A model generated the notes under the pieces. That model saw nothing but the letters and a program-made list of their open reading frames with translations, had not been told where the DNA came from and made no database searches. 64,000 nucleotides of DNA from assembly GCF_000018865.1 (NCBI RefSeq), contig NC_010175.1:682001-746000 (forward strand), given 5' to 3'. A program made the position numbers and the translations under genes. This stretch comes from Chloroflexus aurantiacus J-10-fl (GTDB taxonomy: Bacteria > Chloroflexota > Chloroflexia > Chloroflexales > Chloroflexaceae). Below are positions 9,598 through 57,716 of the stretch, piece by piece (the stretch's first letter is position 1; each line of letters opens with the position of its first letter).

Positions 9598-9638
9598 TGA
9601 CACCTATCTGGCGCAGATGTACCCTCTACACGAGAATA

Positions 9639-10245: not shown

Positions 10246-10281
10246 ATAAAAAAGGCGCGGAGCATAGACTCCGCGCCTTCC
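10246..10281 (-). terminator. Rho-independent terminator of the symporter operon
   Basis: On the minus strand, an eleven-base stem AAGGCGCGGAG/CTCCGCGCCTT (10252-10262 with 10269-10279) is followed by a run of T, 18 bases after the symporter stop codon. This is a textbook intrinsic terminator. Confidence 0.9.
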
Positions 10282-10298
10282 CAGACGAGAATGAGTGA

Positions 10299-27412: not shown

Positions 27413-30400
27413 GTGATCTTGTGGAGGTTTTGATTACACGATTAGATAGAGTTTGCGCCTTTGGCGAGGATTATGGTTTTTTGGAATTGTCACCAACGAC
27501 GATGACCGGCAAGCAACCGTGTACACATTTCAATCCCCGCGAGGGGATGTTGGGTTTTTGAAGTTGTCTTGAGAATTGGTGGCTGACACTGCCGTTCTGT
27601 TTCGTGTTTCAATCCCCTCGCGGGAGTTTCAATCCCCTCGCGGGGATTTTGGTTTTTTGAAGTCCGCAGACTGACGAGGAATGCGCAGCTGCGGCGTTGG
27701 CCAGTTTCAATCCCCTCGCGGGGATTTTGGTTTTTTGAAGAGAAAGGAGTACACCAATGGCAACCTGGATCAAGACCGACATCGGTTTCAATCCCCTCGC
27801 GGGGATTTTGGTTTTTTGAAGGCAAACCTTGCGGAGTGGATCACTCAGATCACGACTGCACTGTGTTTCAATCCCCTCGCGGGGATTTTGGTTTTTTGAA
27901 GGAAGAGAAGGAGGAGGTGTTCAAGTTTCGCTTTCTAATAGGTTTCAATCCCCTCGCGGGGATTTTGGTTTTTTGAAGCCTGGCCGGCCAGCGGATCGGT
28001 GAACTCCCAGGCCAAAGAGTTTCAATCCCCTCGCGGGGATTTTGGTTTTTTGAAGAGACTGGCAAGACTACGCGCTGTTTCGATATTGGTTTTTAAGTTT
28101 CAATCCCCTCGCGGGGATTTTGGTTTTTTGAAGACGATATTGCGCCGCCCGATAAATTGCTCCCGCGTTGATGTTTCAATCCCCTCGCGGGGATTTTGGT
28201 TTTTTGAAGACATAGGCGGCGTTGGCGTCAAGAATCAGATTGATCGCTTTGTTTCAATCCCCTCGCGGGGATTTTGGTTTTTTGAAGGCGTCTACCAAGA
28301 TTGGCATATAATCCAGTTCCTCGATCGGTTTCAATCCCCTCGCGGGGATTTTGGTTTTTTGAAGTCAGTGCCGACGGCGCAGTTTGGGAACTCGTAGTAT
28401 TTTCGGTTTCAATCCCCTCGCGGGGATTTTGGTTTTTTGAAGAAACGTACTATCGCCTTGGGGTCTGGCTCTGGCGATAAGTTTCAATCCCCTCGCGGGG
28501 ATTTTGGTTTTTTGAAGCAAGAATTAGTGGCGCCAATCGCGAATAGTTGGCACACAGCGTCGTTTCAATCCCCTCGCGGGGATTTTGGTTTTTTGAAGTT
28601 CTGAAAACGGCAGAAGCAATCCTGCGACGTAAATATGGGTTTCAATCCCCTCGCGGGGATTTTGGTTTTTTGAAGTTAGAACGCGCTGTCTTTTGCGGTG
28701 GAAGCGAACTTCTGGTTTCAATCCCCTCGCGGGGATTTTGGTTTTTTGAAGAGACCACCCAACCCGCGCAGAGGAACGTCGGCAATTTGGATGTTTCAAT
28801 CCCCTCGCGGGGATTTTGGTTTTTTGAAGCAGAAATTACTCGTTTGATGGAGGCCGGCGCGGCAGAATATATGAGTTTCAATCCCCTCGCGGGGATTTTG
28901 GTTTTTTGAAGGTTACGGAGTACGAGAATGTCAATCAAGTTTTTCCGGGTTTCAATCCCCTCGCGGGGATTTTGGTTTTTTGAAGGGACGGACGGTGGCG
29001 GGTCGTCACGTCGGGGGTTCGCCTTGGTTTCAATCCCCTCGCGGGGGTTTTGGTTTTTTGAAGGTAGGGGTCGGTGCCGGTATTACGGTTGACCAGCTCG
29101 ATCCGTTTCAATCCCCTCGCGGGGATTTTGGTTTTTTGAAGCAGAACGTCAGTTTTGACCTCAAACACCTCGCGCATCACTTTCCGTTTCAATCCCCTCG
29201 CGGGGATTTTGGTTTTTTGAAGACGACCTTCTATCCGCGCTGGACATCAGCGACAATGTTCAGTTTCAATCCCCTCGCGGGGATTTTGGTTTTTTGAAGT
29301 CACGGTTAACGGACGCCAGTACCTGATTCCGGTCACCCCTCCGGTTTCAATCCCCTCGCGGGGATTTTGGTTTTTTGAAGCGGCAGAGGTTTTGCTCCGC
29401 AAGCGGTTCGGTTGTTTACTCGGTTTCAATCCCCTCGCGGGGATTTTGGTTTTTTGAAGAGTTGGCCAGTTTCTCAGATCACCGTTTGGCCAGCCGCTGC
29501 TAGGTTTCAATCCCCTCGCGGGGATTTTGGTTTTTTGAAGGTAGGTATGGTATTGTTGCGAAAAGCCGCAAACCGGCTCGGTTTCAATCCCCTCGCGGGG
29601 ATTTTGGTTTTTTGAAGTTGGAAGATTGAACAGCGAAAAACAGACTTACGTAAACGAGTTTCAATCCCCTCGCGGGGATTTTGGTTTTTTGAAGGCAATC
29701 GGCGCACCAGGCCGGCTTGACCGGCGGCGTCAGTTTCAATCCCCTCGCGGGGATTTTGGTTTTTTGAAGCCGTTGTCCGCCGCGCCGGAAGCGGCGGCGG
29801 GATCGGCGGGTTTCAATCCCCTCGCGGGGATTTTGGTTTTTTGAAGCACGAGCGCTACATTCTGCGTCTGATCCACCACGATCCCGGGTTTCAATCCCCT
29901 CGCGGGGATTTTGGTTTTTTGAAGGAATCAAACCCTTTCGCGTCATGAGCGCCATGGCTCGTCGCGTTTCAATCCCCTCGCGGGGATTTTGGTTTTTTGA
30001 AGGTTGTTGCGTAGTGTTGGGAGTAGCATTCTTAACTACGTTTCAATCCCCTCGCGGGGATTTTGGTTTTTTGAAGCGGTCGTTGATGTCGACCACCAAC
30101 GTCAGGGGCGATCATGGGTTTCAATCCCCTCGCGGGGATTTTGGTTTTTTGAAGCCGGATCGCGCCCCACTCTTGGGGAAAACAAACTATATGTTTCAAT
30201 CCCCTCGCGGGGATTTTGGTTTTTTGAAGGGTTCCAATGTCGTGTGAACACGCCGTCTTTGCAAGCATGGGTTTCAATCCCCTCGCGGGGATTTTGGTTT
30301 TTTGAAGGTGCACGGCGGGGGTGGCGACCGCTCTCGCCAGTGCTGTGGGTTTCAATCCCCTCGCGGGATTTTGGTTTTTTGAAGTCCGACAAAGCTGTGC

Positions 30401-33400
30401 GGCAGGCGGTGGTCGGAGTATTGGCGTTTCAATCCCCTCGCGGGGATTTTGGTTTTTTGAAGGTCACGAGTTACTGTCGACGAAGACGTACCAGACATCT
30501 TCGGTTTCAATCCCCTCGCGGGGATTTTGGTTTTTTGAAGTGCATGGTTGGCACGCCACATTACAAGTCTTGCGCATTATGTTTCAATCCCCTCGCGGGG
30601 ATTTTGGTTTTTTGAAGCTGCTTCGCGCGCCCATGGCGCCTCGTCATCGCGTATGTTTCAATCCCCTCGCGGGGATTTTGGTTTTTTGAAGAGAAAGACC
30701 GGTAACCCGCTTGCCTTGTTCGACATTTTTGAGTTTCAATCCCCTCGCGGGGATTTTGGTTTTTTGAAGGAATCGCGGAATCGGTTTTTCTGTCGCGCAA
30801 TGCTCGGTTTCAATCCCCTCGCGGGGATTTTGGTTTTTTGAAGCAACCACCGCGCGGCTCGGGGAAATCAATCGCGTTGCGTTTCAATCCCCTCGCGGGG
30901 ATTTTGGTTTTTTGAAGAGACGAGGAATTGTCAGCGCTGGCCGCGCTGATCGCTGCGTTTCAATCCCCTCGCGGGGATTTTGGTTTTTTGAAGTCACTGT
31001 CGCGATGGCAGCACTGAGCTGGCGCTTCGATCTGTTTCAATCCCCTCGCGGGGATTTTGGTTTTTTGAAGTCGTTGCCGTTCCAGCTACCTAATCCGTTT
31101 GCACCGTCGGTTTCAATCCCCTCGCGGGGATTTTGGTTTTTTGAAGCGCTTGGGTGATGAGTGGGTAACGCGGCAGGACGTGGGAGAAGTTTCAATCCCC
31201 TCGCGGGGATTTTGGTTTTTTGAAGTTATGCAACTCAAGCAATTCCCCGCATTGCGGGAATTGCGTTTCAATCCCCTCGCGGGGATTTTGGTTTTTTGAA
31301 GGTACCCGCACCTGCCAGTAAAGAGTAAGTACCGCCGTCATGTTTCAATCCCCTCGCGGGGATTTTGGTTTTTTGAAGTTGCGCTTGCAGTGGCGGAAGA
31401 GTTGGTCGAGGAACGTTGCTGGTTTCAATCCCCTCGCGGGGATTTTGGTTTTTTGAAGAAACACAGACGAGGCGGCGGTCGCGTTTTTCCGACCGTTCTT
31501 GTTTCGATCCCCTCGCGGGGATTTTGGTTTTTTGAAGAAAAGGAGGAGCGGGAGGCACTGACGGCCTTGCAAGCCGCGTTTCAATCCCCTCGCGGGGATT
31601 TTGGTTTTTTGAAGTCTGGGCCGGCAAGCCGTCGAAGGTACGGCTGCCGGAAGGTGTTTCAATCCCCTCGCGGGGATTTTGGTTTTTTGAAGAGTATAGA
31701 CGTAAGAAGCAATCAAACAAAAAAAGGAGTTAAGTTTCAATCCCCTCGCGGGGATTTTGGTTTTTTGAAGCCATCCCGATACCGTCAGAGCCGGCGGCTG
31801 AATAACAGCAGGTGGTTTCAATCCCCTCGCGGGGATTTTGGTTTTTTGAAGCGGGTTGGCAACCGTTCCGCCGCTCGGGCACACTCGCAGAGGTTTCAAT
31901 CCCCTCGCGGGGATTTTGGTTTTTTGAAGTTGGCGAAACATTTGTCGTTGGTCATTTGTCACAATTTCAGTTTCAATCCCCTCGCGGGGATTTTGGTTTT
32001 TTGAAGGTGGATGCTGCGAAGCACATTCGTGGTTGGATGAAGCATAAGTTGTTTCAATCCCCTCGCGGGGATTTTGGTTTTTTGAAGATAATTTTCACCT
32101 GTGTATCAAAATCAACCCGCTTTAACGTTTCAATCCCCTCGCGGGGATTTTGGTTTTTTGAAGCGGGAGAAGTATCGCGAATGAGGAACCGAAATATTTA
32201 GTTTCAATCCCCTCGCGGGGATTTTGGTTTTTTGAAGCCAGATTATCCAGACTAGCGAGGGCTTGATTGTCATTCACGTTTCAATCCCCTCGCGGGGATT
32301 TTGGTTTTTTGAAGGCCGATCTGCTCACGCATCACCAGATGCGCCGCAGTGCCGCTTGGTTTCAATCCCCTCGCGGGGATTTTGGTTTTTTGAAGGAGGA
32401 AAAAATGTACCTTGTTAACCTGTACGGCGATTTTAGTTTCAATCCCCTCGCGGGGATTTTGGTTTTTTGAAGTTGCAACAATATCTCATTCCGGCGGTTG
32501 CGCTGTTGCACCAACCGGTTTCAATCCCCTCGCGGGGATTTTGGTTTTTTGAAGTTAATTGGTCCCGGTGGACGAATGAAGACGACTCCGGATTTGTTTC
32601 AATCCCCTCGCGGGGATTTTGGTTTTTTGAAGAGATTGTCTGCGCGGAAGAAGGCAGCGAACAAGATCAGATTTGTTTCAATCCCCTCGCGGGGATTTTG
32701 GTTTTTTGAAGTGAATTACCGTTACGTCTCTATCATACTACGCTATTTGCGGGTTTCAATCCCCTCGCGGGGATTTTGGTTTTTTGAAGGTCACGTATTG
32801 CGCATCTGCATTTGGTATGACCGTCACCGAGTTTCAATCCCCTCGCGGGGATTTTGGTTTTTTGAAGCGATTACGGCGGTGGCGGCGAATGATCGCGGCA
32901 TTGTTGACGTTTCAATCCCCTCGCGGGGATTTTGGTTTTTTGAAGTAATAGTAGTCGCCGGTCGGCGTAATGACGCGCAGATAGTAAGTTTCAATCCCCT
33001 CGCGGGGATTTTGGTTTTTTGAAGACAATTAGCAGAGGCGCGAAAACAACAAACGGAAGTAGTTACGTTTCAATCCCCTCGCGGGGATTTTGGTTTTTTG
33101 AAGCGCTAATATTGGAAAATACAATAATCGCGATATAGAGCAGGTTTCAATCCCCTCGCGGGGATTTTGGTTTTTTGAAGAAGTTGTCGGGTTGGGCAAC
33201 GATCCTGACAACCTTCGCTTTTCGGTTTCAATCCCCTCGCGGGGATTTTGGTTTTTTGAAGCCAAGAATAAGATTGTTCGTGTACGCCGGCAATTGCATA
33301 TATGCAAGTTTCAATCCCCTCGCGGGGATTTTGGTTTTTTGAAGGAATAACCGGTGTTTTTCCTAGAAAAAAAGCCCTGACATTTTGTTTCAATCCCCTC

Positions 33401-33935
33401 GCGGGGATTTTGGTTTTTTGAAGGCAAGCAGAAGCTGAGCGAATGGCGCGATTGCAAGCAGAGTTTCAATCCCCTCGCGGGGATTTTGGTTTTTTGAAGC
33501 GAAGTTCTTGCGCAACAACGCCCGATTCATCTGTTGGGCGGGTTTCAATCCCCTCGCGGGGATTTTGGTTTTTTGAAGCGGTGTTCTCTCCGTGCATCCA
33601 GGTCCAGTTGACAACGTGGAGTTTCAATCCCCTCGCGGGGATTTTGGTTTTTTGAAGTCGCGCAATCGGGAAATGCCAGCCGGCGACTGCACAGGTTTTG
33701 AGTTTCAATCCCCTCGCGGGGATTTTGGTTTTTTGAAGACCCATTTATTGTGGCCCTCACGGACCACCCAGATGAACTCGTTTCAATCCCCTCGCGGGGA
33801 TTTTGGTTTTTTGAAGATACGCGCTTACTCATCAATTCGAGTTGTTGATATAACTCTGTTTCAATCCCCTCGCGGGGATTTTGGTTTTTTGAAGGTGCTG
33901 CAAAGAAGCGCGATAAGGATAAAAAGATAAATAAT

Positions 33936-34202
33936 GTTTCAATCCCCTCGCGGGGATTTTGGTTTTTTGAAGGGCGAAAATGCGTGGGATGATATGGCGC
34001 GTCTCTGTCGTGCCGTTTCAATCCCCTCGCGGGGATTTTGGTTTTTTGAAGCCTTTACCGACGATCATTACCAAAACCCGTTGGCGTCTGTTTCAATCCC
34101 CTCGCGGGGATTTTGGTTTTTTGAAGCCGCACTGACGGCAACGGCAAGCGCGCAGTTACTTTCATGTTTCAATCCCCTCGCGGGGATTTTGGTTTTTTGA
34201 AG
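33936..34202. repeat. Three-spacer block, first copy of a duplication
   Basis: These 267 bp (four repeats and three spacers) are identical to 36118-36384. The spacers begin GGCGAAAATGCGTGGGATGA, CCTTTACCGACGATCATTAC and CCGCACTGACGGCAACGGCA. The flanking spacers differ, so the block was copied inside the array. Confidence 0.95.
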
Positions 34203-36117
34203 GCCCGTTCGCAACCAGGAAGGAGGCGATTGCGGACGCAATGTTTCAATCCCCTCGCGGGGATTTTGGTTTTTTGAAGCGAGTACCACATTGTCGGGGA
34301 TGAGACCCGCGCGAGGGTTGGTTTCAATCCCCTCGCGGGGATTTTGGTTTTTTGAAGCGCAGTAATCTGTGCTTCAACGATCTTTAGCTGATCCTTTGTT
34401 TCAATCCCCTCGCGGGGATTTTGGTTTTTTGAAGAAACCAAATGACCGGCGGCTTCAACACTTACCGTATTGGCCAGTTTCAATCCCCTCGCGGGGATTT
34501 TGGTTTTTTGAAGTGGATTACAACCGCTGGCTGGCGGCGGTGTGGGCCGTTCGTTTCAATCCCCTCGCGGGGATTTTGGTTTTTTGAAGGTAGACGAGGC
34601 CGATGACGGCGACTGGCTGTTGTATCTTTCGGTTTCAATCCCCTCGCGGGGATTTTGGTTTTTTGAAGTTGGTGGATCAGCGCAATATTAAGCGTTCGCC
34701 GCTCATTTACCGGTTTCAATCCCCTCGCGGGGATTTTGGTTTTTTGAAGCTATAGCATAGGAGGCGATCTATGGCAACACGCGAAGAGTGGGTTTCAATC
34801 CCCTCGCGGGGATTTTGGTTTTTTGAAGCAACGCGAATGCCGACGGTGGCGAGAATGGCGGATAGTGTTCGTTTCAATCCCCTCGCGGGGATTTTGGTTT
34901 TTTGAAGCCGTCTCGACGGTGAACGACCACTCCTGAATACCGTTGAGTTTCAATCCCCTCGCGGGGATTTTGGTTTTTTGAAGCGAAGAGGTGTTGAAAG
35001 CGGCGGGGATTGAGGTTCAATTTAGGTTTCAATCCCCTCGCGGGGATTTTGGTTTTTTGAAGCAATAAGATAATGGATGCTGACGCGCGAAGCGGGATTG
35101 GTCGTTTCAATCCCCTCGCGGGGATTTTGGTTTTTTGAAGCCACGTCACAGCGACAGATCGTGACATCGACGGTATCGGTGCGTTTCAATCCCCTCGCGG
35201 GGATTTTGGTTTTTTGAAGCGACAGCCGGCGCGGTTGGCATCGCGGCAGCGCTTGTTGTGTTTCAATCCCCTCGCGGGGATTTTGGTTTTTTGAAGGGAT
35301 AAATGCGTATTTTAGATAACAATCCAGCGCTGTTTGGTTTCAATCCCCTCGCGGGGATTTTGGTTTTTTGAAGGTGACTTTGAGGCCGGCTTACTTCGGT
35401 TTCGCGCCGTCGCCGGTTTCAATCCCCTCGCGGGGATTTTGGTTTTTTGAAGCAGACGCGCCATCGCCCCCGCCGAGCGCGCCGAGCGTAGAGGTTTCAA
35501 TCCCCTCGCGGGGATTTTGGTTTTTTGAAGGAAGCAAACGCAGGTCGAGCAAGGCACGCAGGTTGAGAGTTTCAATCCCCTCGCGGGGATTTTGGTTTTT
35601 TGAAGCGGGGAGTGGGTCGAACTCCCCGGTGAATGGTGGCGGTTTGAGGTTTCAATCCCCTCGCGGGGATTTTGGTTTTTTGAAGACGTGGCCGGAAACC
35701 ATCCGCCGCGTTATTCTCGGCGCGCAGTTTCAATCCCCTCGCGGGGATTTTGGTTTTTTGAAGGTACCGACGTAAGTTATCTACGTCCATGGCCCACGTG
35801 TAATGTTTCAATCCCCTCGCGGGGATTTTGGTTTTTTGAAGCACACAACCAACAACGCAGAAAGGTGGGGAATGGTAGTGCGGTTTCAATCCCCTCGCGG
35901 GGATTTTGGTTTTTTGAAGGCCAGCACTTTTTGCCGACCTTGAAAGCTTGGCAGGTACGTTTCAATCCCCTCGCGGGGATTTTGGTTTTTTGAAGCTGGC
36001 CAACGTCCGCAACGCAGCCCGACAACGGCGATAGTGTTTCAATCCCCTCGCGGGGATTTTGGTTTTTTGAAGTCAGACAGTGTGCGCACTGTTGACAAAA
36101 AATTGCTCGAAAATTGC

Positions 36118-36384
36118 GTTTCAATCCCCTCGCGGGGATTTTGGTTTTTTGAAGGGCGAAAATGCGTGGGATGATATGGCGCGTCTCTGTCGTGCCGTTT
36201 CAATCCCCTCGCGGGGATTTTGGTTTTTTGAAGCCTTTACCGACGATCATTACCAAAACCCGTTGGCGTCTGTTTCAATCCCCTCGCGGGGATTTTGGTT
36301 TTTTGAAGCCGCACTGACGGCAACGGCAAGCGCGCAGTTACTTTCATGTTTCAATCCCCTCGCGGGGATTTTGGTTTTTTGAAG
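36118..36384. repeat. Three-spacer block, second copy
   Basis: Second copy of the 33936-34202 block, 28 repeats further along in window coordinates. No mismatch was seen by eye. Confidence 0.95.
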
Positions 36385-39300
36385 TTTTCGAGTTGAGGAC
36401 GACACCGAATAAATAGATAAAAATACAAGTTTCAATCCCCTCGCGGGGATTTTGGTTTTTTGAAGATGATGTGAGCAACGAAGGAAATCCAGCAAAGAAA
36501 GGAAGGAGTTTCAATCCCCTCGCGGGGATTTTGGTTTTTTGAAGAACAAGAAAGGAGTTAACTATGAAGAAGATCAACTGGTACGTGTTTCAATCCCCTC
36601 GCGGGGATTTTGGTTTTTTGAAGTAGCACAAATTGATCGGTTTCGGTGACAACGTTTCTGACGAGTTTCAATCCCCTCGCGGGGATTTTGGTTTTTTGAA
36701 GGCTAAAGGGGGGGACTTACGTATGGGTTTTTCGAGAAGGCCCCCGGTTTCAATCCCCTCGCGGGGATTTTGGTTTTTTGAAGTCGACGGTTTCTCGCCG
36801 CGCTGCGTTGTCGCGTATTGCAACGTTTCAATCCCCTCGCGGGGATTTTGGTTTTTTGAAGTGGTTTAAACAGTTAGGCGCGAAAAGCACGGGACGGTTT
36901 AGTAGTGTTTCAATCCCCTCGCGGGGATTTTGGTTTTTTGAAGACAACGCAGCGTTTTCATTGCGCAGTTTGTGCAGCGCACTGCGTAGTTTCAATCCCC
37001 TCGCGGGGATTTTGGTTTTTTGAAGGCCAAACCAGTAACCAAACAAGAAAGGAGAACAGAAATGTACGTTTCAATCCCCTCGCGGGGATTTTGGTTTTTT
37101 GAAGGCGGCGCAAATGCACTTTGTAATTAGGCAACTCGAATACGTAGTGTTTCAATCCCCTCGCGGGGATTTTGGTTTTTTGAAGCAATAAAGAGCATGG
37201 TATCGTCAGGCGCGCCGTGCTCAACGTTTCAATCCCCTCGCGGGGATTTTGGTTTTTTGAAGATCCTGTTCGCGGTCTGGCGCAAACAGATGGAGATCGC
37301 GTTTCAATCCCCTCGCGGGGATTTTGGTTTTTTGAAGGCCGTATGCGTCGATAACCGATGCAAACAGTAGTAATTCCCCGTTTCAATCCCCTCGCGGGGA
37401 TTTTGGTTTTTTGAAGTGGTATTGACAACGTGACACGAGTATGCTATAGTATAGTCAACGTTTCAATCCCCTCGCGGGGATTTTGGTTTTTTGAAGACAC
37501 CGGAACCCACTGTTTTGTTTCCGGGTCTTGCGCGATCCAGTTTCAATCCCCTCGCGGGGATTTTGGTTTTTTGAAGACGCTACAAGCAGTGTCTACAGTA
37601 CATACCGCGCTGTCCACAACGTTTCAATCCCCTCGCGGGGATTTTGGTTTTTTGAAGATAGGTGGACGGCGCCGGTGGGTGGACGGCGGATATTATGTGG
37701 GTTTCAATCCCCTCGCGGGGATTTTGGTTTTTTGAAGTGACCCAACCCGCGCTGGCTTTCGCCTCCAGCGCCTTAATCGCGTTTCAATCCCCTCGCGGGG
37801 ATTTTGGTTTTTTGAAGCTGGCGTTTCGATTGATATTGAGGGGTTTGCGTTGTTCGGAAGTTTCAATCCCCTCGCGGGGATTTTGGTTTTTTGAAGACGA
37901 GGGAAGGAAACGAAGCGAATGTTTCGAGCATGTTAGTTTCAATCCCCTCGCGGGGATTTTGGTTTTTTGAAGCGCCCGGCTCGGCGAGCGTCCATGGATC
38001 GGCAGGCATAGCAGGAGGTTTCAATCCCCTCGCGGGGATTTTGGTTTTTTGAAGGGAATACTTCATGGCGTATGAGGGGAGGTAGCATGAATTACAGTTT
38101 CAATCCCCTCGCGGGGATTTTGGTTTTTTGAAGTTACTGTCGCCGTCGACAGCGACGGCGATATCTACGAAATCGCGCGTTTCAATCCCCTCGCGGGGAT
38201 TTTGGTTTTTTGAAGCAACTTACATGGGCATGCTCGAGCCGCCAGCTTTATGGCGTTTCAATCCCCTCGCGGGGATTTTGGTTTTTTGAAGACACAGTTG
38301 CCGGTGTCGTTCGGCTCATTTTTGAAACTTGGGTTTCAATCCCCTCGCGGGGATTTTGGTTTTTTGAAGGTACCTGCTCGTGCTTTGGGGCGTGACAGGG
38401 TTGCTTGCTGCGTTTCAATCCCCTCGCGGGGATTTTGGTTTTTTGAAGACCAATTGCGTCGATCCGGCTCACGACTGTGAAACCATCCGGTTTCAATCCC
38501 CTCGCGGGGATTTTGGTTTTTTGAAGGGAAAACGCGGGAGTGATCCCGCGACGAGTAACATCGTTGTTTCAATCCCCTCGCGGGGATTTTGGTTTTTTGA
38601 AGCGACATGGCGTGGCGAGTAGCTATCAGCATTCATGCAACGTTAGGTTTCAATCCCCTCGCGGGGATTTTGGTTTTTTGAAGGTAGGGTATCGCTGGGG
38701 GAGACCGCAGCACATCGTTGACGTTTCAATCCCCTCGCGGGGATTTTGGTTTTTTGAAGGCGACAATTGACACCGACGGAACGGAGCGCGGTTGCCGAAA
38801 GTTTCAATCCCCTCGCGGGGATTTTGGTTTTTTGAAGCTGCTTCATCCGCTTTTCCTTCCGCCTCCGCTTCCGCTATCGTTTCAATCCCCTCGCGGGGAT
38901 TTTGGTTTTTTGAAGTCACGCAAATAGTCGCTCGGCGACACGCTGAAACGCCGGGTTTCAATCCCCTCGCGGGGATTTTGGTTTTTTGAAGTTCGCAGCA
39001 ATTGCGTCAATCAGGTCGTCACGCAAATCGCGTTTCAATCCCCTCGCGGGGATTTTGGTTTTTTGAAGCATCTGCTCAGCGCAGTTCAGCATACTGCGCA
39101 GCAGCGAGCAGGTTTCAATCCCCTCGCGGGGATTTTGGTTTTTTGAAGTTACATTGGGTACCAACAGAGGCCTTTTTGCCGTGGCTACGTTTCAATCCCC
39201 TCGCGGGGATTTTGGTTTTTTGAAGCCCCAGGGGTGGGACTATGTGTACGTCGGGACCCCTCTTATGAGGTTTCAATCCCCTCGCGGGGATTTTGGTTTT

Positions 39301-42300
39301 TTGAAGTCGCTTGTTCACGCTGTGCGCGAGCAAGAAGGGTCTTTGTGTTTCAATCCCCTCGCGGGGATTTTGGTTTTTTGAAGAACATACACAACGAAAG
39401 GGGGACAGTATGTCGTACTTTGAACTGTTTCAATCCCCTCGCGGGGATTTTGGTTTTTTGAAGCCACACCACCACCACCAACTTGTCAACACCCTTACAA
39501 CAAACAAAGTTTCAATCCCCTCGCGGGGATTTTGGTTTTTTGAAGCTGATCGCGTGGTCGAGCGATGGCGCAAGGCGTCGATCTCGAGTTTCAATCCCCT
39601 CGCGGGGATTTTGGTTTTTTGAAGCGATCCGCATTACGCAGATCGAACATGCGTTTGCGTCCTAACGGTTTCAATCCCCTCGCGGGGATTTTGGTTTTTT
39701 GAAGACCCTGAACCACACTACCGACCCCTTCTCTACGACACGGTTTCAATCCCCTCGCGGGGATTTTGGTTTTTTGAAGCGATGTGATGATCGCGTTCGG
39801 GAAGGTGTAGGTGGTCGTACCGGTTTCAATCCCCTCGCGGGGATTTTGGTTTTTTGAAGCCAAACACATCAAAAATTGCCTCCGTTGTCATAAAAACATT
39901 GTGTTTCAATCCCCTCGCGGGGATTTTGGTTTTTTGAAGTTCCATACAATAAGAAGTAACGCGAACGCAGGAATGATGGTTTCAATCCCCTCGCGGGGAT
40001 TTTGGTTTTTTGAAGTCACGAGGCGCTGGCGCTGGCCAATGCGCTGGCGCAGACGGTTTCAATCCCCTCGCGGGGATTTTGGTTTTTTGAAGCTGTGAAA
40101 TAGTTTTCCCTGAAACAAATTGCAAGAGATGGGTTTCAATCCCCTCGCGGGGATTTTGGTTTTTTGAAGGGAGGAAGGATCGCAGTGGCACAAAGAAATC
40201 GAACAGGGCTGGGTTTCAATCCCCTCGCGGGGATTTTGGTTTTTTGAAGACACAATGTCAAGCGCCCACGCGACGCGCTGCTCGCTGACGTTTCAATCCC
40301 CTCGCGGGGATTTTGGTTTTTTGAAGAAACTTAGCGGTAGTTGGCGATCGCGTCCGCGATCGCTTGTTTCAATCCCCTCGCGGGGATTTTGGTTTTTTGA
40401 AGCAGCATTTCCATCATCTCTCACCTGCCTGCCGTTTTGGGTTTCAATCCCCTCGCGGGGATTTTGGTTTTTTGAAGGAAGAACACAAAGCGGAGCGAAG
40501 AATTGACACAGTTGTAGGGTTTCAATCCCCTCGCGGGGATTTTGGTTTTTTGAAGGAAAACTGTTCATATAGCGACGCTGTTAACTTAAAAGAGAAAGTG
40601 TTTCAATCCCCTCGCGGGGATTTTGGTTTTTTGAAGCGCCACTTAATGACACGCTTATCGGCGTACAACAGCGTTGCGTTTCAATCCCCTCGCGGGGATT
40701 TTGGTTTTTTGAAGGGCGTACACGCGCGTCGCCATCTGGTCGATCCCTTGTGTCACGGGTTTCAATCCCCTCGCGGGGATTTTGGTTTTTTGAAGGATAG
40801 ATCGCAAAACGCGACGAGCAAGCGGTTCGGATAGCGGTTTCAATCCCCTCGCGGGGATTTTGGTTTTTTGAAGTGTGCCGGCAAGCGACGAAAAGGGACT
40901 GTATCTTGTTTCAAGTTTCAATCCCCTCGCGGGGATTTTGGTTTTTTGAAGGTTTCAGTACGACAAGATGGATATTGACACGTATATTTTGCGGTTTCAA
41001 TCCCCTCGCGGGGATTTTGGTTTTTTGAAGTTCTTATCCGCCGTTGGCAGCGCGAATTACTTGCTGTTGACGTTTCAATCCCCTCGCGGGGATTTTGGTT
41101 TTTTGAAGTGCGCTACACGCTGTGCTGCGGTAAGCGGAGCATCAGGTTTCAATCCCCTCGCGGGGATTTTGGTTTTTTGAAGCGGGCGCAATTGCGCCCG
41201 GGAGTGTACGTGTGGGTGGTCCGGTTTCAATCCCCTCGCGGGGATTTTGGTTTTTTGAAGCGCGCTTGACGAAATGTTATCGCAGCAAATCGCTTACTGT
41301 TCGGTTTCAATCCCCTCGCGGGGATTTTGGTTTTTTGAAGACAGAAGGGGTCGATGAAGATCAAGAGTAGTCGTGTTGTAGGTTTCAATCCCCTCGCGGG
41401 GATTTTGGTTTTTTGAAGGCACTTGTCTGCGCACTGATGTAACTCTCTCTAGTCTTTTCAATCCCCTCGCGGGGATTTTGGTTTTTTGAAGAAAAACGGG
41501 TTTGTAAGCGGCGCAAATGCACTTTGTAATTAGGCTTTTCAATCCCCTCGCGGGGATTTTGGTTTTTTGAAGGTAGACGTACATACCGCGCATGGTCGTA
41601 TGGAGCAGACTTTTCAATCCCCTCGCGGGGATTTTGGTTTTTTGAAGGTGTGCGCCGTCAGCACGATCTGCCGAAATGCCGGCTCCGTCTCTTTTCAATC
41701 CCCTCGCGGGGATTTTGGTTTTTTGAAGCAAGCTAGGATCATACCTCGTCCGGGCTGCGCGTGAGGTAGCTTTTCAATCCCCTCGCGGGGATTTTGGTTT
41801 TTTGAAGAGAATTAGAACTAGCGAATGCAGAGGAGTTGTTCACGGATTAAATTTTCAATCCCCTCGCGGGGATTTTGGTTTTTTGAAGGGATTAGCATTC
41901 TGTGGTGGCGTGGATCGGTTGCACGGCGTTGCTTTTCAATCCCCTCGCGGGGATTTTGGTTTTTTGAAGTGATTATCCGTATCCGGTGACTAAAATACCG
42001 GACCAACTCTCGTTTTCAATCCCCTCGCGGGGATTTTGGTTTTTTGAAGGCGCAATCTAAGCGCGCAATCTAAGCGCGCAATCCAAGCGCGCAATTTTCA
42101 ATCCCCTCGCGGGGATTTTGGTTTTTTGAAGTGTTAGACAAACCCACCGGATTGCAGGACTACGACGCGATCCTTTTCAATCCCCTCGCGGGGATTTTGG
42201 TTTTTTGAAGGCAGATAATAACGGTGAGGTTGAAGGATTTATCTTTCGGATTTTCAATCCCCTCGCGGGGATTTTGGTTTTTTGAAGGACTTTGAACAAC

Positions 42301-45300
42301 ATTGTTTTCCTCCTTGTCGTTGCAGTTTTTTTCAATCCCCTCGCGGGGATTTTGGTTTTTTGAAGGAATGGTTGCCAGCCGGGCACGTACTTAATCATAG
42401 TGTACGTTTTTCAATCCCCTCGCGGGGATTTTGGTTTTTTGAAGGTAGAGGTTGCGTACACGCCGCAGCGCACGTATACCCCTTTTCAATCCCCTCGCGG
42501 GGATTTTGGTTTTTTGAAGAGCTACGTGCTAAAGGGTTACAGAGTTACCACGTGTGTATCGTTTTCAATCCCCTCGCGGGGATTTTGGTTTTTTGAAGCG
42601 GCAAGCAATACAGTTGCACAGCAAATTGTGCAAGCACATTTTCAATCCCCTCGCGGGGATTTTGGTTTTTTGAAGGCAAGGCGGGTAAAGAGGTCGATGA
42701 GGCGCTGCATTCCGTTTTCAATCCCCTCGCGGGGATTTTGGTTTTTTGAAGCGACAAGGTATTTTTGGTCGGCCCTTTTCTTACTCAGAAAAGTTTTCAA
42801 TCCCCTCGCGGGGATTTTGGTTTTTTGAAGTCAGATTGTGGCGCGAGTAAACACAGCGACAGACGGTGCGTTTTCAATCCCCTCGCGGGGATTTTGGTTT
42901 TTTGAAGGAGCAGGCGTGCGCCTGCTTCATCGAACGCAATTTTCGAAATTTTCAATCCCCTCGCGGGGATTTTGGTTTTTTGAAGCCACTCGGGCTCCCT
43001 CGCGGAGTGCGTCGAGTGGGCGATTTTCAATCCCCTCGCGGGGATTTTGGTTTTTTGAAGATCAAGTCGCTAACAAGAGGAGGGAAAAACCATGTTTACG
43101 TTTTTTCAATCCCCTCGCGGGGATTTTGGTTTTTTGAAGTCATTGTGCATCCCCCGCCGTCAAGCCGTTGTGCCATTGCTTTTCAATCCCCTCGCGGGGA
43201 TTTTGGTTTTTTGAAGCTCCTCTCTCTACCGCGTTGCTCGAGTCGCTCGACTGGCGCTTTTCAATCCCCTCGCGGGGATTTTGGTTTTTTGAAGTCGGAT
43301 TGCATCGCTTACGCAAACAAGAGCCTGCATTTCCGTTTTCAATCCCCTCGCGGGGATTTTGGTTTTTTGAAGGGAATGGGTTGGTACGCGTGAAGGCACC
43401 CAACCCCATTCTACGTTTTCAATCCCCTCGCGGGGATTTTGGTTTTTTGAAGCGCAAAATGACACTAAGCATTGGAAAGCGGAGAAATGCATTTTCAATC
43501 CCCTCGCGGGGATTTTGGTTTTTTGAAGTGACTGTCCAACACCGTTTCCAACCAAAAAGTACCCTCCTTTTCAATCCCCTCGCGGGGATTTTGGTTTTTT
43601 GAAGTCAACGACGGCAGCCGGCAGCAATGCGCCAAATTGGGGGGAGCGTTTTCAATCCCCTCGCGGGGATTTTGGTTTTTTGAAGGGAAGGTGCATTGGT
43701 CGTAGGCTGGTTAACCGCCTACGTGATTTTCAATCCCCTCGCGGGGATTTTGGTTTTTTGAAGTTACATGTCCAAGATCGAACCCCCGGCCCTATGGCGG
43801 CTTGAGTTTTCAATCCCCTCGCGGGGATTTTGGTTTTTTGAAGCCAGCCGGCTGACGCAACAGCACTACAGCCGCGAGGGGCTGGTGTTTTTCAATCCCC
43901 TCGCGGGGATTTTGGTTTTTTGAAGAAAAGGGCCGTATCTCAGCAATGGTGATAATTCACAATATGAGTTTTCAATCCCCTCGCGGGGATTTTGGTTTTT
44001 TGAAGCGGCGCAGCGGCAGAAGGAACGGTTGCGCAAGCAACAATTTTCAATCCCCTCGCGGGGATTTTGGTTTTTTGAAGCCTCAAGTAGCTGGTTAGCG
44101 TCGCCGGTGCGCTTAAACTCGTTTTTTCAATCCCCTCGCGGGGATTTTGGTTTTTTGAAGCTCCGCGCATTCCGCCCGCGCCGGATTGCGGAACACGTTG
44201 TGCTTTTCAATCCCCTCGCGGGGATTTTGGTTTTTTGAAGCGGATCGGGATGAGCATTAGCGGATGGATGCAATGTTTGCCTTTTCAATCCCCTCGCGGG
44301 GATTTTGGTTTTTTGAAGAGGTACTATGCAACCAACTATTACGTACAATCCACAAACGTATACTTTTCAATCCCCTCGCGGGGATTTTGGTTTTTTGAAG
44401 GCGTATTCACGCGAGCAACGTTCCAATTCGCCGGTTTGTTTTTCAATCCCCTCGCGGGGATTTTGGTTTTTTGAAGCTACCCTTTCCAACTATTGTACAT
44501 AGCGCCCAAATACCGATACTTTTCAATCCCCTCGCGGGGATTTTGGTTTTTTGAAGGAAGAGGCTCGCTCGCTCGACGCCGAAGAAGCAATCGAGTGGTT
44601 TTCAATCCCCTCGCGGGGATTTTGGTTTTTTGAAGGTTGGCGATGCTGCTTTTACCACAAGTTCAAATGTGACCTATGATTTTCAATCCCCTCGCGGGGA
44701 TTTTGGTTTTTTGAAGCTCAGCACATCGTCAACGGGTAAACGACGTGTTTTTGATTTTCAATCCCCTCGCGGGGATTTTGGTTTTTTGAAGCAAGCTTAG
44801 GAAGGACGCGCTGCACTTGTTGAATGTAATTGTTTTCAATCCCCTCGCGGGGATTTTGGTTTTTTGAAGGTACATCGCGTATGAGCGTTCCGTTCTTGGC
44901 TCGTAATTTTTTTCAATCCCCTCGCGGGGATTTTGGTTTTTTGAAGCGATAGAGCGAACAATGGTTTCGGCTAGCGCGCTCCGTCCTTTTCAATCCCCTC
45001 GCGGGGATTTTGGTTTTTTGAAGGTAGTCCGCCGAGGTGCGTGTCGAGGCGGCGAGGTCATAGCTTTTCAATCCCCTCGCGGGGATTTTGGTTTTTTGAA
45101 GCAACAATCTCTATCTTTATCATTACACCACAACCTGTTTGTTTTCAATCCCCTCGCGGGGATTTTGGTTTTTTGAAGGCCGACTTTAGCGTGTCGGAAT
45201 GCCTCAATCATACGCGATGATTTTCAATCCCCTCGCGGGGATTTTGGTTTTTTGAAGTTTGTACGTTATTTGATACGTCAATTTATGTTGATACGCTGTT

Positions 45301-48300
45301 TTCAATCCCCTCGCGGGGATTTTGGTTTTTTGAAGAGACAGGATGACTACTCGCAGGAGGGATGTTATGGAGTTTTCAATCCCCTCGCGGGGATTTTGGT
45401 TTTTTGAAGCCGGTACTTGCATTAGTTCGGGAATGACCAGCGCAATAATCATTTTCAATCCCCTCGCGGGGATTTTGGTTTTTTGAAGGTACCGGATTGG
45501 GTAGTCGGTCACATCCGGCGTCTGCTGGAGTTTTCAATCCCCTCGCGGGGATTTTGGTTTTTTGAAGGGGGCAGCAACGAAGCTGCCTCTCAAATTTTTA
45601 TTTTAGCGCTTTTCAATCCCCTCGCGGGGATTTTGGTTTTTTGAAGGTTGTAAAAAATTACCGCCGGCGCGTTTACTAATTTCACTTTTCAATCCCCTCG
45701 CGGGGATTTTGGTTTTTTGAAGACCAGATCGCGCAGCGGATCGGCGCGGTGCTGGAGGCGTTCGGTTTTCAATCCCCTCGCGGGGATTTTGGTTTTTTGA
45801 AGGGCAAGATTGCGGGTCGTTAACCGGCGACCCGTCGGTGGCGGTTTTCAATCCCCTCGCGGGGATTTTGGTTTTTTGAAGGGGGCGCGGGTGGTGCTAA
45901 ATAATACCGGTCTCTATACGTGTTTTCAATCCCCTCGCGGGGATTTTGGTTTTTTGAAGTGACGACATGCATGATGACGGCATAGATTGACATTACTCTT
46001 TTTTTCAATCCCCTCGCGGGGATTTTGGTTTTTTGAAGGTATCAGCCGGCCCGCCCTCGTGATGTTGCTCACTGCCTGGTTTTCAATCCCCTCGCGGGGA
46101 TTTTGGTTTTTTGAAGCCGCTCCCCTTTGCATGCCTTGAGTTCGAGACATATGGAGTTTTCAATCCCCTCGCGGGGATTTTGGTTTTTTGAAGATCGAGC
46201 AGTGCCGCCGCGAGTGCAGGGGTGTCGGCGTCAATGACGTTTTCAATCCCCTCGCGGGGATTTTGGTTTTTTGAAGCCGCCGGAAATTGATGTTCCCGTG
46301 ATAGTCGCAGCATCAATCGTTTTCAATCCCCTCGCGGGGATTTTGGTTTTTTGAAGTACAGTGACTACGTATGTCACAAACGAAAGGAGGTGATACTTTT
46401 CAATCCCCTCGCGGGGATTTTGGTTTTTTGAAGATAGTTTTGTCAAGACGCTCTCCGAAATGTATCGTGATGGTTTTCAATCCCCTCGCGGGGATTTTGG
46501 TTTTTTGAAGGAACCTGACCCCTGGGTGTGTGGTCTTCGCCTTCGTTGACCATTTTCAATCCCCTCGCGGGGATTTTGGTTTTTTGAAGTTGATACTTCG
46601 ACCCTACCTATTCCGCACATGCTGATCGATTTTCAATCCCCTCGCGGGGATTTTGGTTTTTTGAAGCTAAGAAAGACGGCTGGGCAAAGGTGAAAGGGTT
46701 TTCCCTGGATTTTCAATCCCCTCGCGGGGATTTTGGTTTTTTGAAGCTGCTGGATCAACCGGCAACGGCACGCAAGACGCTGCTAGTTGTTTTTCAATCC
46801 CCTCGCGGGGATTTTGGTTTTTTGAAGGTACGACAATGCGCTGCGGTGCAAACGACGCTGCGTTAGATGTTTTTCAATCCCCTCGCGGGGATTTTGGTTT
46901 TTTGAAGACAGCCCAGCGCGCTGACGGTGTCACAACACTGCATTATTTTTCAATCCCCTCGCGGGGATTTTGGTTTTTTGAAGGTACTACTCTGTGCCGC
47001 AGCACTGTGGGCCGCGCTTAGACGATTTTCAATCCCCTCGCGGGGATTTTGGTTTTTTGAAGCCGAGGTTAAACATTGTCTCGGCGTACTGTAGCAGTTG
47101 GTTTTTTCAATCCCCTCGCGGGGATTTTGGTTTTTTGAAGTCCACGTTGACCCGTCGAGCGACGTGCCGAGATAGATTGATTTTCAATCCCCTCGCGGGG
47201 ATTTTGGTTTTTTGAAGAAAAATTAGCGCGCCCGTTATATACCGGCGCGTTGTTGTTTAGTTTTCAATCCCCTCGCGGGGATTTTGGTTTTTTGAAGCCA
47301 CCAGCGGGCGACGGTTTCAAGTACCTCGCCTGCCTCCGTTTTCAATCCCCTCGCGGGGATTTTGGTTTTTTGAAGTGGAATGCACCATCGGTAATCCAAG
47401 TTCGACGCGGGCGATGTTGGTTTTCAATCCCCTCGCGGGGATTTTGGTTTTTTGAAGCGGATGCACCGCGCCACCCATATAGTAAGGAATTCGGATTTTC
47501 AATCCCCTCGCGGGGATTTTGGTTTTTTGAAGACACACCGTGACTGTTTGAAGGACTATACGTAAGCTGCGACTTTTCAATCCCCTCGCGGGGATTTTGG
47601 TTTTTTGAAGTTAAGTGGCGACTTGAGTACGTCGCCTTCCCATAATAACCTTTTCAATCCCCTCGCGGGGATTTTGGTTTTTTGAAGCGACGATCGTCGA
47701 GACGATTGCCTCCACCAGCGGCGCAAAGGCTTTTCAATCCCCTCGCGGGGATTTTGGTTTTTTGAAGGCTGGCAAGGTATACGCAACCCTCCACCTGAAA
47801 GATGACTTTTCAATCCCCTCGCGGGGATTTTGGTTTTTTGAAGACAAAGCCCCGGCGGTATCGCCGGGGCTTTTTGTATTGTCTTTTCAATCCCCTCGCG
47901 GGGATTTTGGTTTTTTGAAGGGAGCTAACGCTTCCGACAGAAACGATCCAATTTTGAGTTTTCAATCCCCTCGCGGGGATTTTGGTTTTTTGAAGATTTT
48001 TGAATGGTCGAGCGCCAGTCGAGCAACGCGGTAGAGGTTTTCAATCCCCTCGCGGGGATTTTGGTTTTTTGAAGGGGTATACGTTACGTTGGCTTCGAGA
48101 CGAAACGGGAGCGATTTTCAATCCCCTCGCGGGGATTTTGGTTTTTTGAAGTTTCTCCTTTCTTTGCTGTCACCTTGTCCTTCGTCACTTCTATTTTCAA
48201 TCCCCTCGCGGGGATTTTGGTTTTTTGAAGTTTCGTTTGAGGGGCGGCAACGAAGCTGCCCCTCAAATTTTTATTTTCAATCCCCTCGCGGGGATTTTGG

Positions 48301-48508
48301 TTTTTTGAAGAAACAAAAAAAAGTAGGCTGAGCGGTTGCCCACTCAGCCTATTTTTCAATCCCCTCGCGGGGATTTTGGTTTTTTGAAGCCGTACCGCTC
48401 GGCGTATTACCGGTGGGCAGACATTCCGTATAATTTTCAATCCCCTCGCGGGGATTTTGGTTTTTTGAAGCAACTGGTCGCGGTGGGCCGGGGAGGACAC
48501 TCACGCGG

Positions 48509-48695
48509 TTTTCAATCCCCTCGCGGGGATTTTGGTTTTTTGAAGCCTCCACTTCCAACGTGGAGGAGATGCGGAGAGTGCACTTTTCAATCCCCTCGCG
48601 GGGATTTTGGTTTTTTGAAGCCTCCACTTCCAACGTGGAGGAGATGCGGAGAGTGCACTTTTCAATCCCCTCGCGGGGATTTTGGTTTTTTGAAG
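48509..48695. repeat. Tandem duplication of one repeat-spacer unit
   Basis: The spacer starting CCTCCACTTCCAACGTGGAG occurs twice in succession (48546-48583 and 48621-48658), exactly 75 bp apart. It lies near the leader, in the younger part of the array. Confidence 0.95.
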
Positions 48696-49164
48696 CCAGG
48701 CTCTGAGAAGCTCTACGCGCTCTACGACATCAACACAACTTTTCAATCCCCTCGCGGGGATTTTGGTTTTTTGAAGGTGAGTACCGGGCGCAGCTAAAGG
48801 GGGGAGAGTACATCTTTTTCAATCCCCTCGCGGGGATTTTGGTTTTTTGAAGCGAGATTGTAGAGTTCCGCGGAACGGAACTCGGCTGGCTATTTTCAAT
48901 CCCCTCGCGGGGATTTTGGTTTTTTGAAGCAGCTCCACCTCTGCCGGGGTGAGGGGGCGCGGCAGCTTCATTTTCAATCCCCTCGCGGGGATTTTGGTTT
49001 TTTGAAGATATTATAATAATAGCATAAGAGATAAGAAACAGAAGGGAGAGATTTTCAATCCCCTCGCGGGGATTTTGGTTTTTTGAAGAATTGTTGAATA
49101 GGAGGGAGTAAATGACCGTCAGTCTAATTTTCAATCCCCTCGCGGGGATTTTGGTTTTTTGAAG

Positions 49165-49342
49165 ATACCACCCCTGCCGCCGCTTTGCAATGCGCTCGCT
49201 ACTGCAATTTGCGCGGCAGGGGTGATTTTGCCGTATTGTGTAAAGTCTTTTACGCCATCTGGAGAGAAACGAGTACTGTTTTTGCTCATTGCAATCCGAT
49301 CCCGCGCCATTCAGGGGTAGATGTTTGCCCGGACGACGCTTA
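49165..49342 (-). promoter_or_regulatory. CRISPR leader
   Basis: 178 bp between the leader-proximal repeat and the IS element that now separates the array from cas2. By position it must contain the array promoter and adaptation signals, though no clear -10/-35 pair stands out and it is not very AT-rich. Next to the first repeat is a perfect twelve-base inverted repeat, CACCCCTGCCGC (49169-49180) with GCGGCAGGGGTG (49213-49224). A 52-codon open frame (49131-49289, minus) runs from the leader into the first repeat. Confidence 0.75.
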
Positions 49343-50201
49343 GAGCCTGTTATGAACGTTGAACCATGAGCGAGACAAACCGATGGGCCACCACGATGGC
49401 AACAGCAACGACATGCAAGCCGGCCAGCGTCGCCGCCACACGGTCGTCGTCACGCACCAAGCGACGGAAGCGCGTCATCCAGGCGAACCTGCGCTCGACC
49501 ACCCAGCGCCGCGGCAGCACGCCAACGCCGCGCGTGGCGGTCGGCAGCGTGACCACCGCCAGGCGACTGCCGTGGGCGGCGGCCTCGGCTGCCGGTTGCG
49601 CACCGGTGTACCCCTGGTCAACGACGGCCACCGCTACCGTGTCACCAGGTATCTCCTGCATGCGTTGCGCCAGCGCCGCCACCTGCGCCCGATCGTGGTC
49701 GGTGGCCGGGGTGACCACTACTGCCGGCAGGTGCCCCAGCGTAGCCACGGCCAGATGTACCGTCGCGCCGTTCCGGCGGTTGTGTCCATCGTACCCAGCA
49801 CGGCCCCCGCGTTCCGGCGTCGACTGAAGCGTCCGGCTGTCCACCATGACGGCACGGGGCTGGGGCGCACGGTCGGTGATGTCGCGCAGCAGCATCCGCA
49901 CGTCGTGCACCATCTGCGCACCCACGCCCGCTTTCAGCCAGCGCTGGGGCTGGTGATACACCACGGGCCACGGCGGCACGGCGGTGGGCAGCATTCGCCA
50001 CGGTGCACCCGTGCGCAGCATGGAGCGCAGCCCGTTGGCGACGTCGCGCAGGGGGTAGTTTCGCTGCGGCGCTGCTTCGTCCATCAGCGTCACAGAGGGC
50101 GCGACGAATGCCCACTCTTCATCAGAACCATCACTGGGATAGGCTGTTCGTGTCATAGCGTCATGATATACGCGCAGAACCGAAAAGTCCATAACAGGCT
50201 C
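49343..50201 (-). mobile_element. IS5-family insertion sequence, apparently intact
   Basis: An 859-bp element with inverted ends GAGCCTGTTATGAAC (left) and, on the other strand, GAGCCTGTTATGGAC (right), flanked by the dinucleotide TA on both sides (49341-49342 and 50202-50203). A TA duplication and this size fit the IS427-type group of IS5. It carries one transposase gene without disruption. It sits exactly at the cas2 stop codon. A dead relative with the same end sequence lies at 16.5-16.9 kb. Confidence 0.88.
49350..50156 (-). CDS. IS5-family DDE transposase
   Basis: A 268-residue protein starting MTRTAYPSDGSDEEWAFVAP. DDE motifs are visible: AVMVDSRTLQSTPERGGRAG (first Asp), VAVAVVDQGYTG (second Asp) and the C-terminal RRWVVERRFAWMTRFRRLVR (Glu), the pattern WVVERTFAWxxRxRRL of IS5-family enzymes. 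It catalyses cut-and-paste transposition of the surrounding 859-bp element. The start at 50156 matches the conserved N terminus also seen in the remnant at 16.6 kb; a longer in-frame start at 50192 is possible but lies in the IS end. In this group the enzyme is sometimes made by frameshifting from two frames; here it is one frame. Confidence 0.92.
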   Translation of the reverse strand: MTRTAYPSDGSDEEWAFVAPSVTLMDEAAPQRNYPLRDVANGLRSMLRTGAPWRMLPTAVPPWPVVYHQPQRWLKAGVGAQMVHDVRMLLRDITDRAPQPRAVMVDSRTLQSTPERGGRAGYDGHNRRNGATVHLAVATLGHLPAVVVTPATDHDRAQVAALAQRMQEIPGDTVAVAVVDQGYTGAQPAAEAAAHGSRLAVVTLPTATRGVGVLPRRWVVERRFAWMTRFRRLVRDDDRVAATLAGLHVVAVAIVVAHRFVSLMVQRS

Positions 50202-50482
50202 TAGATGATGTAGATGTCCTGGCTGGTTTCAGGAGGTGGGCCGTCACCGATGATTTCGATTTGCTCGCGACACGAGGCGCACAGCCGATAGATGCGTAGC
50301 CGATCTCCTTCTTCGTCTTTGATGAGGCGGTTGAGTTTCTGGCGGAGTTGCCGATAGGCCGGGAGTTCGAGGTCGCATTCAAAGACGCTCTCCAGCACGC
50401 GCTGGCCGTAGCCTTCCAGTAGTTTGGCGATTTTGAGCCGGCGCTGGTCGACGCTGATGTCGTATGAGATCAGGTAGAACAT
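50201..50482 (-). CDS. cas2: CRISPR-associated endonuclease Cas2
   Basis: A 93-residue protein starting MFYLISYDISVDQRRLKIAK, with the ferredoxin-like fold of Cas2: the first strand ends in YDI with the conserved Asp, then LLEGYGQRVLESVFECDLE and LRIYRLCASC. Cas2 forms the Cas1-Cas2 integrase that inserts new spacers at the leader end. GAGGTG precedes the ATG. The gene follows cas1 by 19 bp. The stop codon TAG is formed jointly with the IS element inserted at its TA; without the IS the original stop would read TAA, so the protein is unchanged. Confidence 0.95.
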   Translation of the reverse strand: MFYLISYDISVDQRRLKIAKLLEGYGQRVLESVFECDLELPAYRQLRQKLNRLIKDEEGDRLRIYRLCASCREQIEIIGDGPPPETSQDIYII

Positions 50483-50501
50483 TGGCCCACCTCTTTGATC
50501 G

Positions 50502-51521
50502 TTATCGGGCGGTGAATGGTTCGTAACGCTCCTGTTGGCCGCGAATGACGCGCGCCAGACGCCGGGCCTGCAGGGCGATGCAGCGCTGGTAGGTGACTTT
50601 GCCCGGCCCGCTGTCGGCACCTTCTGGATGGGTCGCTTCGGTACGCATCCGCTCTTCAAAGGCGGTCAGGAAGGCACGCTTGCCCTCATCGGTGATGATG
50701 ACCGGACGCGCTTCGTCACCCGGTTGAAAGTGTTCCAGCCGGAGCCGGCCATCGTTGCAAACACGTACAACCAGTGAGTCGATGAGGAGCGGGCGGAATT
50801 CTTCCATCAGATCAAGGGCCAGCGATGGCCGTCCGTAGTCGAGGCTGTGCAAAAAGCCAAGGTAGGGGTCGAAGCCGGCAGCCTGTACCGCACCCAGGGT
50901 TTTGTGGGTCAGGAGGGTGTAACCAAAGGAGAGTAACAGGTTGACCGGGTCGGGCGGCGGACGACGCTGGCGACTGCGGAAGTCCCATTCTGGCTCGATC
51001 AGGCTGCGCAGGCCGGCAAAGTAGCGGGCAGTGGCACTTCCTTCGACACCCAGGAGTGCGCTGAGCCGGGTGGTGCGGCGCACCCGTTTGATGTAGGCGT
51101 CGAGATCGTCAGCCGCAGCCAGCGCTTCGGCTGGTGGGGTCGCTCGATTGCGGCTGAAGCGCTGGAGCAGCGCCCGTTGGTTGCGCAGTTTGCCTTCGAC
51201 AAAGCTCTGCGCTAAGCGCAGGGTGCGGTCACTGTCGGCAGCACAGGCGTATTGAGCCTGGCGTAAGGCGACATGAGCGGTAACTTGACCGACCAGGCGC
51301 CCCTGGTAGCTGCCGTCGACGGTCATAAAGGTGACTTCGATGCTTCGATCAAGGAGTCGTTTAATGGCCGGTGTGCTGATGCCGATGTTGCCAAAGATGA
51401 CGATGTCATCGACTTTGACTAGCGGCACGCTGCCGATGATTTCACCCGCTCGCCGCACGACGATCCGTTCACCGTCACAGCCAATTTCGGCACCTTGTTC
51501 AATCAGATAGAGTGTCGCCAT
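50502..51521 (-). CDS. cas1: CRISPR-associated integrase Cas1
   Basis: A 339-residue Cas1 with the N-terminal beta domain (MATLYLIEQGAEIGCDGERI, VDDIVIFGNIGISTPAIKRL) and the helical catalytic domain. Active-site residues are E160 in LLGVEGSATARYF, H225 in LHSLDYGRPSLALD and E240 in DLMEEFRP, the metal-binding set needed to join new spacers to the array. There is no fused reverse transcriptase or Cas6 domain. It overlaps the end of cas6 by 23 bp and is followed by cas2, so cas6-cas1-cas2 is one operon transcribed toward the leader. All catalytic residues are present, so adaptation is probably active. Confidence 0.97.
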   Translation of the reverse strand: MATLYLIEQGAEIGCDGERIVVRRAGEIIGSVPLVKVDDIVIFGNIGISTPAIKRLLDRSIEVTFMTVDGSYQGRLVGQVTAHVALRQAQYACAADSDRTLRLAQSFVEGKLRNQRALLQRFSRNRATPPAEALAAADDLDAYIKRVRRTTRLSALLGVEGSATARYFAGLRSLIEPEWDFRSRQRRPPPDPVNLLLSFGYTLLTHKTLGAVQAAGFDPYLGFLHSLDYGRPSLALDLMEEFRPLLIDSLVVRVCNDGRLRLEHFQPGDEARPVIITDEGKRAFLTAFEERMRTEATHPEGADSGPGKVTYQRCIALQARRLARVIRGQQERYEPFTAR

Positions 51522-57708: not shown

Positions 57709-57716
57709 AGCACTCC

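Follow-up and report, generated by a model that had tools for sequence, protein, structure and literature searches.

CRISPR adaptation is described, in its textbook form, as a duplication of the first repeat upon acquisition of a spacer (passages of PMC9048733). In the sections on repeat variation of the Escherichia and Salmonella study by Touchon and Rocha (2010, PMC2886076), neighboring repeats are reported to share variants in runs, and such conserved variant stretches are taken to suggest that each new repeat arises by duplication of its neighbor. The propagation of repeat mutations at duplication is also stated in a passage of the CRISPRDetect paper (PMC4869251). For type I-E systems, the part of Swarts 2012 (PMC3338789) that deals with the repeat end reports that each spacer brings its own last repeat base, which the next acquisition can revert. 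On handle position -1 and on terminal-base hot spots, the literature search met nothing.

The window analyzed here, a stretch of 64,000 nucleotides from Chloroflexus aurantiacus J-10-fl, contains what is, judging by its gene content, a type III-A CRISPR-Cas locus, with cas10/csm1, csm2 to csm5, cas6 and cas1-cas2 encoded beside a long array (Table 1). The low-coordinate end of the array is degenerate, a conserved leader is located at the high-coordinate end, and the cas genes lie beyond it on the same strand; the aligned leader and the degenerate repeats at the far end place the young side of the array at high coordinates. The 36-nt core of the repeat occurs in 273 exact copies on the + strand of the window, and the exact count in the whole genome (5,258,541 bases) is also 273, so that no exact repeat is found elsewhere in the genome. 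At the old end, a 20-nt partial repeat (27606-27625) directly abuts the oldest intact repeat, with no spacer between them. Units have been duplicated within the array: in the older block, three consecutive spacers recur 28 units apart (33973-34165 and 36155-36347), and in the younger block one spacer is doubled (48546-48583 and 48621-48658; spacers 7 and 8 are identical). The leader contains a perfect 12-nt inverted repeat (49169-49224) that starts 4 bases from the first repeat. The insertion sequence next to the leader overlaps the cas2 stop with its end and looks recent, given that a second copy of 866 bases, 100% identical, is present at genome positions 2059788-2060653. The limited extent of the Cas2 match indicates that the true start of cas2 is probably further in than the listed open reading frame.

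Table 1. Features of the CRISPR-Cas locus in the window, and the array of a second genome used for comparison
Feature	Position	Strand	Remarks
CRISPR array	27626..49164	-	37-nt repeat, 276 copies; leftward transcription; leader on the high-coordinate side
Degenerate trailer repeat	27527..27563	-	core with 4 mismatches; last base T
Older block	27626..41418	-	177 repeats with C as last base; 174 exact, the other 3 each changed at one internal site
Boundary spacer	41419..41454	-	36 nt; the sole one below 37 nt among 269 normal spacers
Younger block	41455..49164	-	99 exact repeats ending in A
Leader	49165..49340	-	motifs beside the first repeat common to three relatives
Insertion sequence	49341..50203	-	20-nt inverted ends; IS4/5-type transposase; between cas2 and the leader
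cas2	50201..50659	-	ORF as listed; Cas2 match at residues 60-147
cas1	50502..51521	-	family match
cas6	51499..52362	-	family match
CARF-HEPN protein (Csx1/Csm6-like)	53373..54827	-	family match
Second CARF-HEPN protein (Csx1/Csm6-like)	54824..56329	-	family match
csm5	56293..57837	-	family match
csm4	57717..58802	-	family match
csm3	58820..59638	-	family match
csm2	59656..60108	-	family match
cas10 (csm1)	60145..62319	-	family match
L072 array	G089:C217:66001-86000, array at 25-7842		genome of the same family; adjoining Cas1 scores best as Cas1b

The last base of the repeat divides this array into two blocks. On the + strand, the base preceding the core is G (C on the array strand) in 174 exact copies, from 27626 to 41382, and T (A on the array strand) in 99 exact copies, from 41455 to 49128. 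Three repeats of the older block carry internal changes (substitutions at 29027 and 31501 and a one-base deletion at 30349) and also end in C; each of these changes is single and none is inherited, as expected of repeats that were already inside the array. With exact and internally changed repeats counted together, the division into C-ending and A-ending repeats proposed in the initial annotation holds throughout (177/177 with C in the older block and 99/99 with A in the younger one): there is only one boundary, C and A repeats are not interspersed, and the leader-proximal repeat ends in A, not C. Random ordering of the 273 exact repeats would yield such a split with a chance of only about 10^-76 (log10 of 76.3 for the number of possible orders). 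The share of the array that is younger than the switch, put at about a third, is borne out as well (99/276, or 36%).

The boundary is clean, and both the length of the repeat and the register of the spacers are constant on its two sides. Mean spacer length is 41.17 nt in the C block (n=170) and 41.24 nt in the A block (n=99; p=0.70), the composition of the spacer ends differs at 0 of 20 positions (smallest p 0.10), and the end motif (A at 3, T at -3) keeps its place, with no register shift. Had each spacer contributed the A, the spacers of the A block should be shorter by one base and the motif at their ends displaced; neither is seen, so the base belongs to the repeat and not to the spacer. 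This preference of the spacers is a symmetrical mark, present also in the arrays of related species, and looks like a bias of the acquisition machinery that takes no account of orientation. A 28-nt overlap links spacer 98 of the A block to spacer 154 of the C block, so both blocks drew a spacer from one element or from related ones. In a comparison with 50,697 phage and 72,556 plasmid records, run in the 'near' mode only, no match to the array was obtained, and exact matching of two spacer pieces in viral contigs gave 0 stretches each. For the boundary spacer, the sole match among 158 genomes of the class, at up to 3 mismatches, is its own array, and no protospacer was found in these genomes or with one viral-contig pattern. 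No full spacer of the window recurs in the fetched related loci, where there are 5 partial matches in 4 loci, none of them in the array stretch of G007.

We consider it probable that the two blocks record a change in the leader-proximal repeat that was copied by all later acquisitions. A type III-A array would grow at its leader end, the leader-proximal repeat being duplicated with every spacer gained. At, or soon after, the gain of the spacer that is now at the boundary, a C-to-A change would have affected the last base of this repeat, and the later acquisitions would have copied the A form, leaving A in the younger 99 repeats and C in the older 177. The A may stem from a substitution or from a slip by one position that made the initial base of the spacer part of the repeat. 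The perfect split of 99 A and 177 C repeats, the likeness of the spacers on both sides and the uniqueness of the exact repeat in the genome speak for this explanation, as do the C of the leader-proximal repeat in three relatives and the spacer overlap across the boundary; we infer a single event in the array's own leader-proximal repeat. Against it stands the switching to and fro of terminal bases in three related genomes, which a simple one-way mutation leaves unexplained; the responsible process (recombination, or a repeat end prone to errors) might have been at work here too. The core idea of the initial annotation, a leader-proximal change copied by later acquisitions, is supported; the proposed number of about 99 acquisitions is adjusted to about 97 to 99, because one unit of the A block is duplicated and the first A repeat is possibly itself the changed one, an estimate that ignores invisible spacer losses. 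The boundary was also expected to date the spacers, and it does give their relative order, but not a date. Tolerance of the A form by Cas1-Cas2 follows from the further acquisitions.

Among the genomes of the genus, 6 of 8 (C. aurantiacus J-10-fl included) contain the repeat core at no more than 2 mismatches. In the array of locus L009 (genome G001, at about 4733-11728), which consists of 91 repeats and has no duplicated spacers, the last base alternates between C, G and A, with ten switches in total. In G003 and G004, it is the first base of the repeat that switches, with all four bases represented; a duplicated segment makes up part of the pattern in G003, and a duplicated three-unit segment part of the first-base mosaic of locus L010. 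The switch in the window is the simplest member of a set of terminal-base switches, and its description as a one-time event fits the single boundary seen here but does not carry over to the relatives, where terminal bases change over and over, with ten switches in a single array. Such recurrent changes point to some contribution of recombination or of an error-prone repeat end. In G001, G003 and G006, all of other species, the repeat nearest the leader has C as its last base, and here it has A, so that, by sequence comparison, C is probably the ancestral and A the derived state of the last base; in G007, also of another species, the identical core was found in 8 repeats, all of which end in C. 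Since the terminal bases switch more than once in the genus, C or A in another strain cannot by itself place that strain before or after the event.

Repeat variation was further surveyed in 46 arrays of at least 20 repeats (3,534 repeats in all), drawn from the window and 99 loci, namely stretches of up to 20 kb around the Cas1 genes of the class and the loci fetched earlier. The survey leaves out L019, L020, L022 and L023, which are duplicates, as well as arrays of fewer than 20 repeats or of unclear orientation, and every array scored is trimmed of its three trailer-most repeats and of any repeat with more than 3 mismatches; the consensus of L042, of 23 nt, is doubtful. Repeat variation is absent from 24 of the 46 arrays (invariant arrays being counted by locus, with the two arrays of L035 pooled). 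There are 22 columns with an inherited run of at least two variant repeats, 8 of which are the first or last base and 14 of which lie no more than 3 bases from an end; the survey p-values take such columns as independent, although L011, L012 and L013 share one genome (G004). Single variants are terminal in 45 of 67 cases, L072 supplying 21 of the 45, and in 24 of 46 when L072 is left out. Repeat variation concentrates on the terminal bases, a pattern that relaxed constraint could produce, as could errors made at the integration joints. The longest run of a minority base is 26 repeats in any other surveyed array and 99 in the window.

The most informative array is that of L072, oriented by its GAAAC repeat end and by the side on which cas1 lies. 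Read from the young end, its leader-side terminal base is G for 35 repeats and C for 11, is mixed through a further 39 and is then T, with one G, over 23. The gaps between successive cores average 37.53 nt in the uniform phases (n=68) and 36.23 nt in the mixed one (n=39), that is, 1.3 nt shorter (p=3e-6). The phases were drawn by eye from the terminal base alone, so the gaps, which were not used to set them, provide an independent test. The simplest reading is that L072 alternated between duplicating 37 and 36 bases, i.e. between copying its terminal base and not copying it.

A slip of this kind is a possible, though not the favored, origin of the A in the window. The acquisition of the boundary spacer would have duplicated 36 rather than 37 bases, and the first base of that spacer would have become the last base of the repeat and then been copied, so that this account and the one preferred above differ solely in where the A came from. 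It draws on the unique length of the boundary spacer, which, counted as 37 nt together with the A, has A at the favored position 3; the rough likelihood ratio for a slip or deletion over a substitution is 27 before priors, a value that depends strongly on the chance assumed for a 36-nt spacer, and one-base slips are expected to be rarer than substitutions. L072 indicates that an array is able to alter the duplicated length by one base, though there on the leader side. Next to 14 last-base switches in six related arrays, spacers fall short by a mean of 0.96 nt (one-sided p 0.03), but this set includes the window case from which the spacer-capture test arose, and the mean falls to only -0.27 for the 12 switches that remain without it and without a trailer-end case in L010. 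The end motif is also unshifted at the last-base switches, with A at position 2 in 3/14 and at position 3 in 4/14. At 30 first-base switches, three of which are second copies arising from the unit duplication in L010, the mean is +0.31, and T at -3 is kept in 13/30. As a general cause of terminal switching, examined in the window together with five related loci, capture of a spacer base has weak or no support, the shortening being small and the motif unshifted. More speculatively, long arrays may record a wider process, in which Cas1-Cas2 sometimes shifts the duplicated length by one base and freezes a spacer or leader base into the end of the repeat, to be inherited from then on, with the A block as one outcome; L072, which has both modes in one array, serves as an example. 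If so, terminal bases would be the main route of CRISPR repeat evolution, and long arrays would log each change of register, the 36-nt boundary spacer being the scar of one.

It is rather unlikely that the A type was brought in by recombination, with a related A-type strain supplying either its leader together with the repeat beside it or an entire A-type array end, grown before or after the transfer. Terminal-base alleles do toggle in the arrays of related species, as with C and G in G001, where no spacer is duplicated, and the unit duplications inside the window array testify to within-array recombination. An import is, however, at odds with the lack of a second copy of the repeat in the genome, with spacer statistics that are identical across the boundary and with spacers that overlap across it, although a close strain as the source would be compatible with all three. 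A last base derived from the PAM and supplied by each spacer, with an acquisition rule that changed at the boundary, has a precedent in the type I-E system of E. coli, where the last repeat nucleotide is PAM-derived according to the relevant part of PMC3338789. We reject it here as highly improbable: length and register are unchanged at the boundary, and the flank of the spacer 98 protospacer, as read from spacer 154, is T where the preceding repeat has A, a single case in which the two protospacers may derive from variant elements. Direct type III adaptation is, moreover, PAM-independent in the systems tested, as stated in a passage of PMC9048733. The fusion of two arrays with different acquisition habits is unsupported, since the spacer statistics are the same on both sides and the exact repeat is unique in the genome.

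With a change in the leader-proximal repeat and its subsequent copying as the preferred explanation, the array provides an unusually clean natural record of how new repeats of a type III-A system are copied from the leader-proximal one, and the boundary separates old from young among its 276 repeats. Type III-A systems are recognized by a processed crRNA with an 8-nt handle derived from the 3' end of the repeat, and for self-recognition the outermost base of this handle is of little importance. The putative handle of the crRNAs of the window array we take to be AUUGAAAC. The last base of the repeat is outside the predicted hairpin, and the C and A versions are predicted to fold alike; Cas6 and the Csm complex, for which tolerance of the A form had also been proposed, may accept both. 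The presence of two natural versions of the handle in one cell makes a comparison of their crRNAs possible. Together, the terminal-base survey and L072 make the accuracy of the integrase cut site testable from existing genomes.

As the principle has already been published, the window array is a fine example of a known effect. It resembles the Escherichia and Salmonella arrays, as these are presented in the repeat sections of PMC2886076, in that a variant is shared along a run of neighboring repeats, and it differs from them in belonging to a type III-A system and in having its variant at the last base, in a run of 99 repeats that extends to the leader. The corresponding passage of the CRISPRDetect paper (PMC4869251) is a general statement made in the context of array detection and contains no analysis of this array. 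The likeness to type I-E, so far as it is covered in the relevant part of PMC3338789, is that the variable base is the last one of the repeat; unlike in that system, the base in the window is uniform in 99/99 repeats and mismatches the one flank that can be read.
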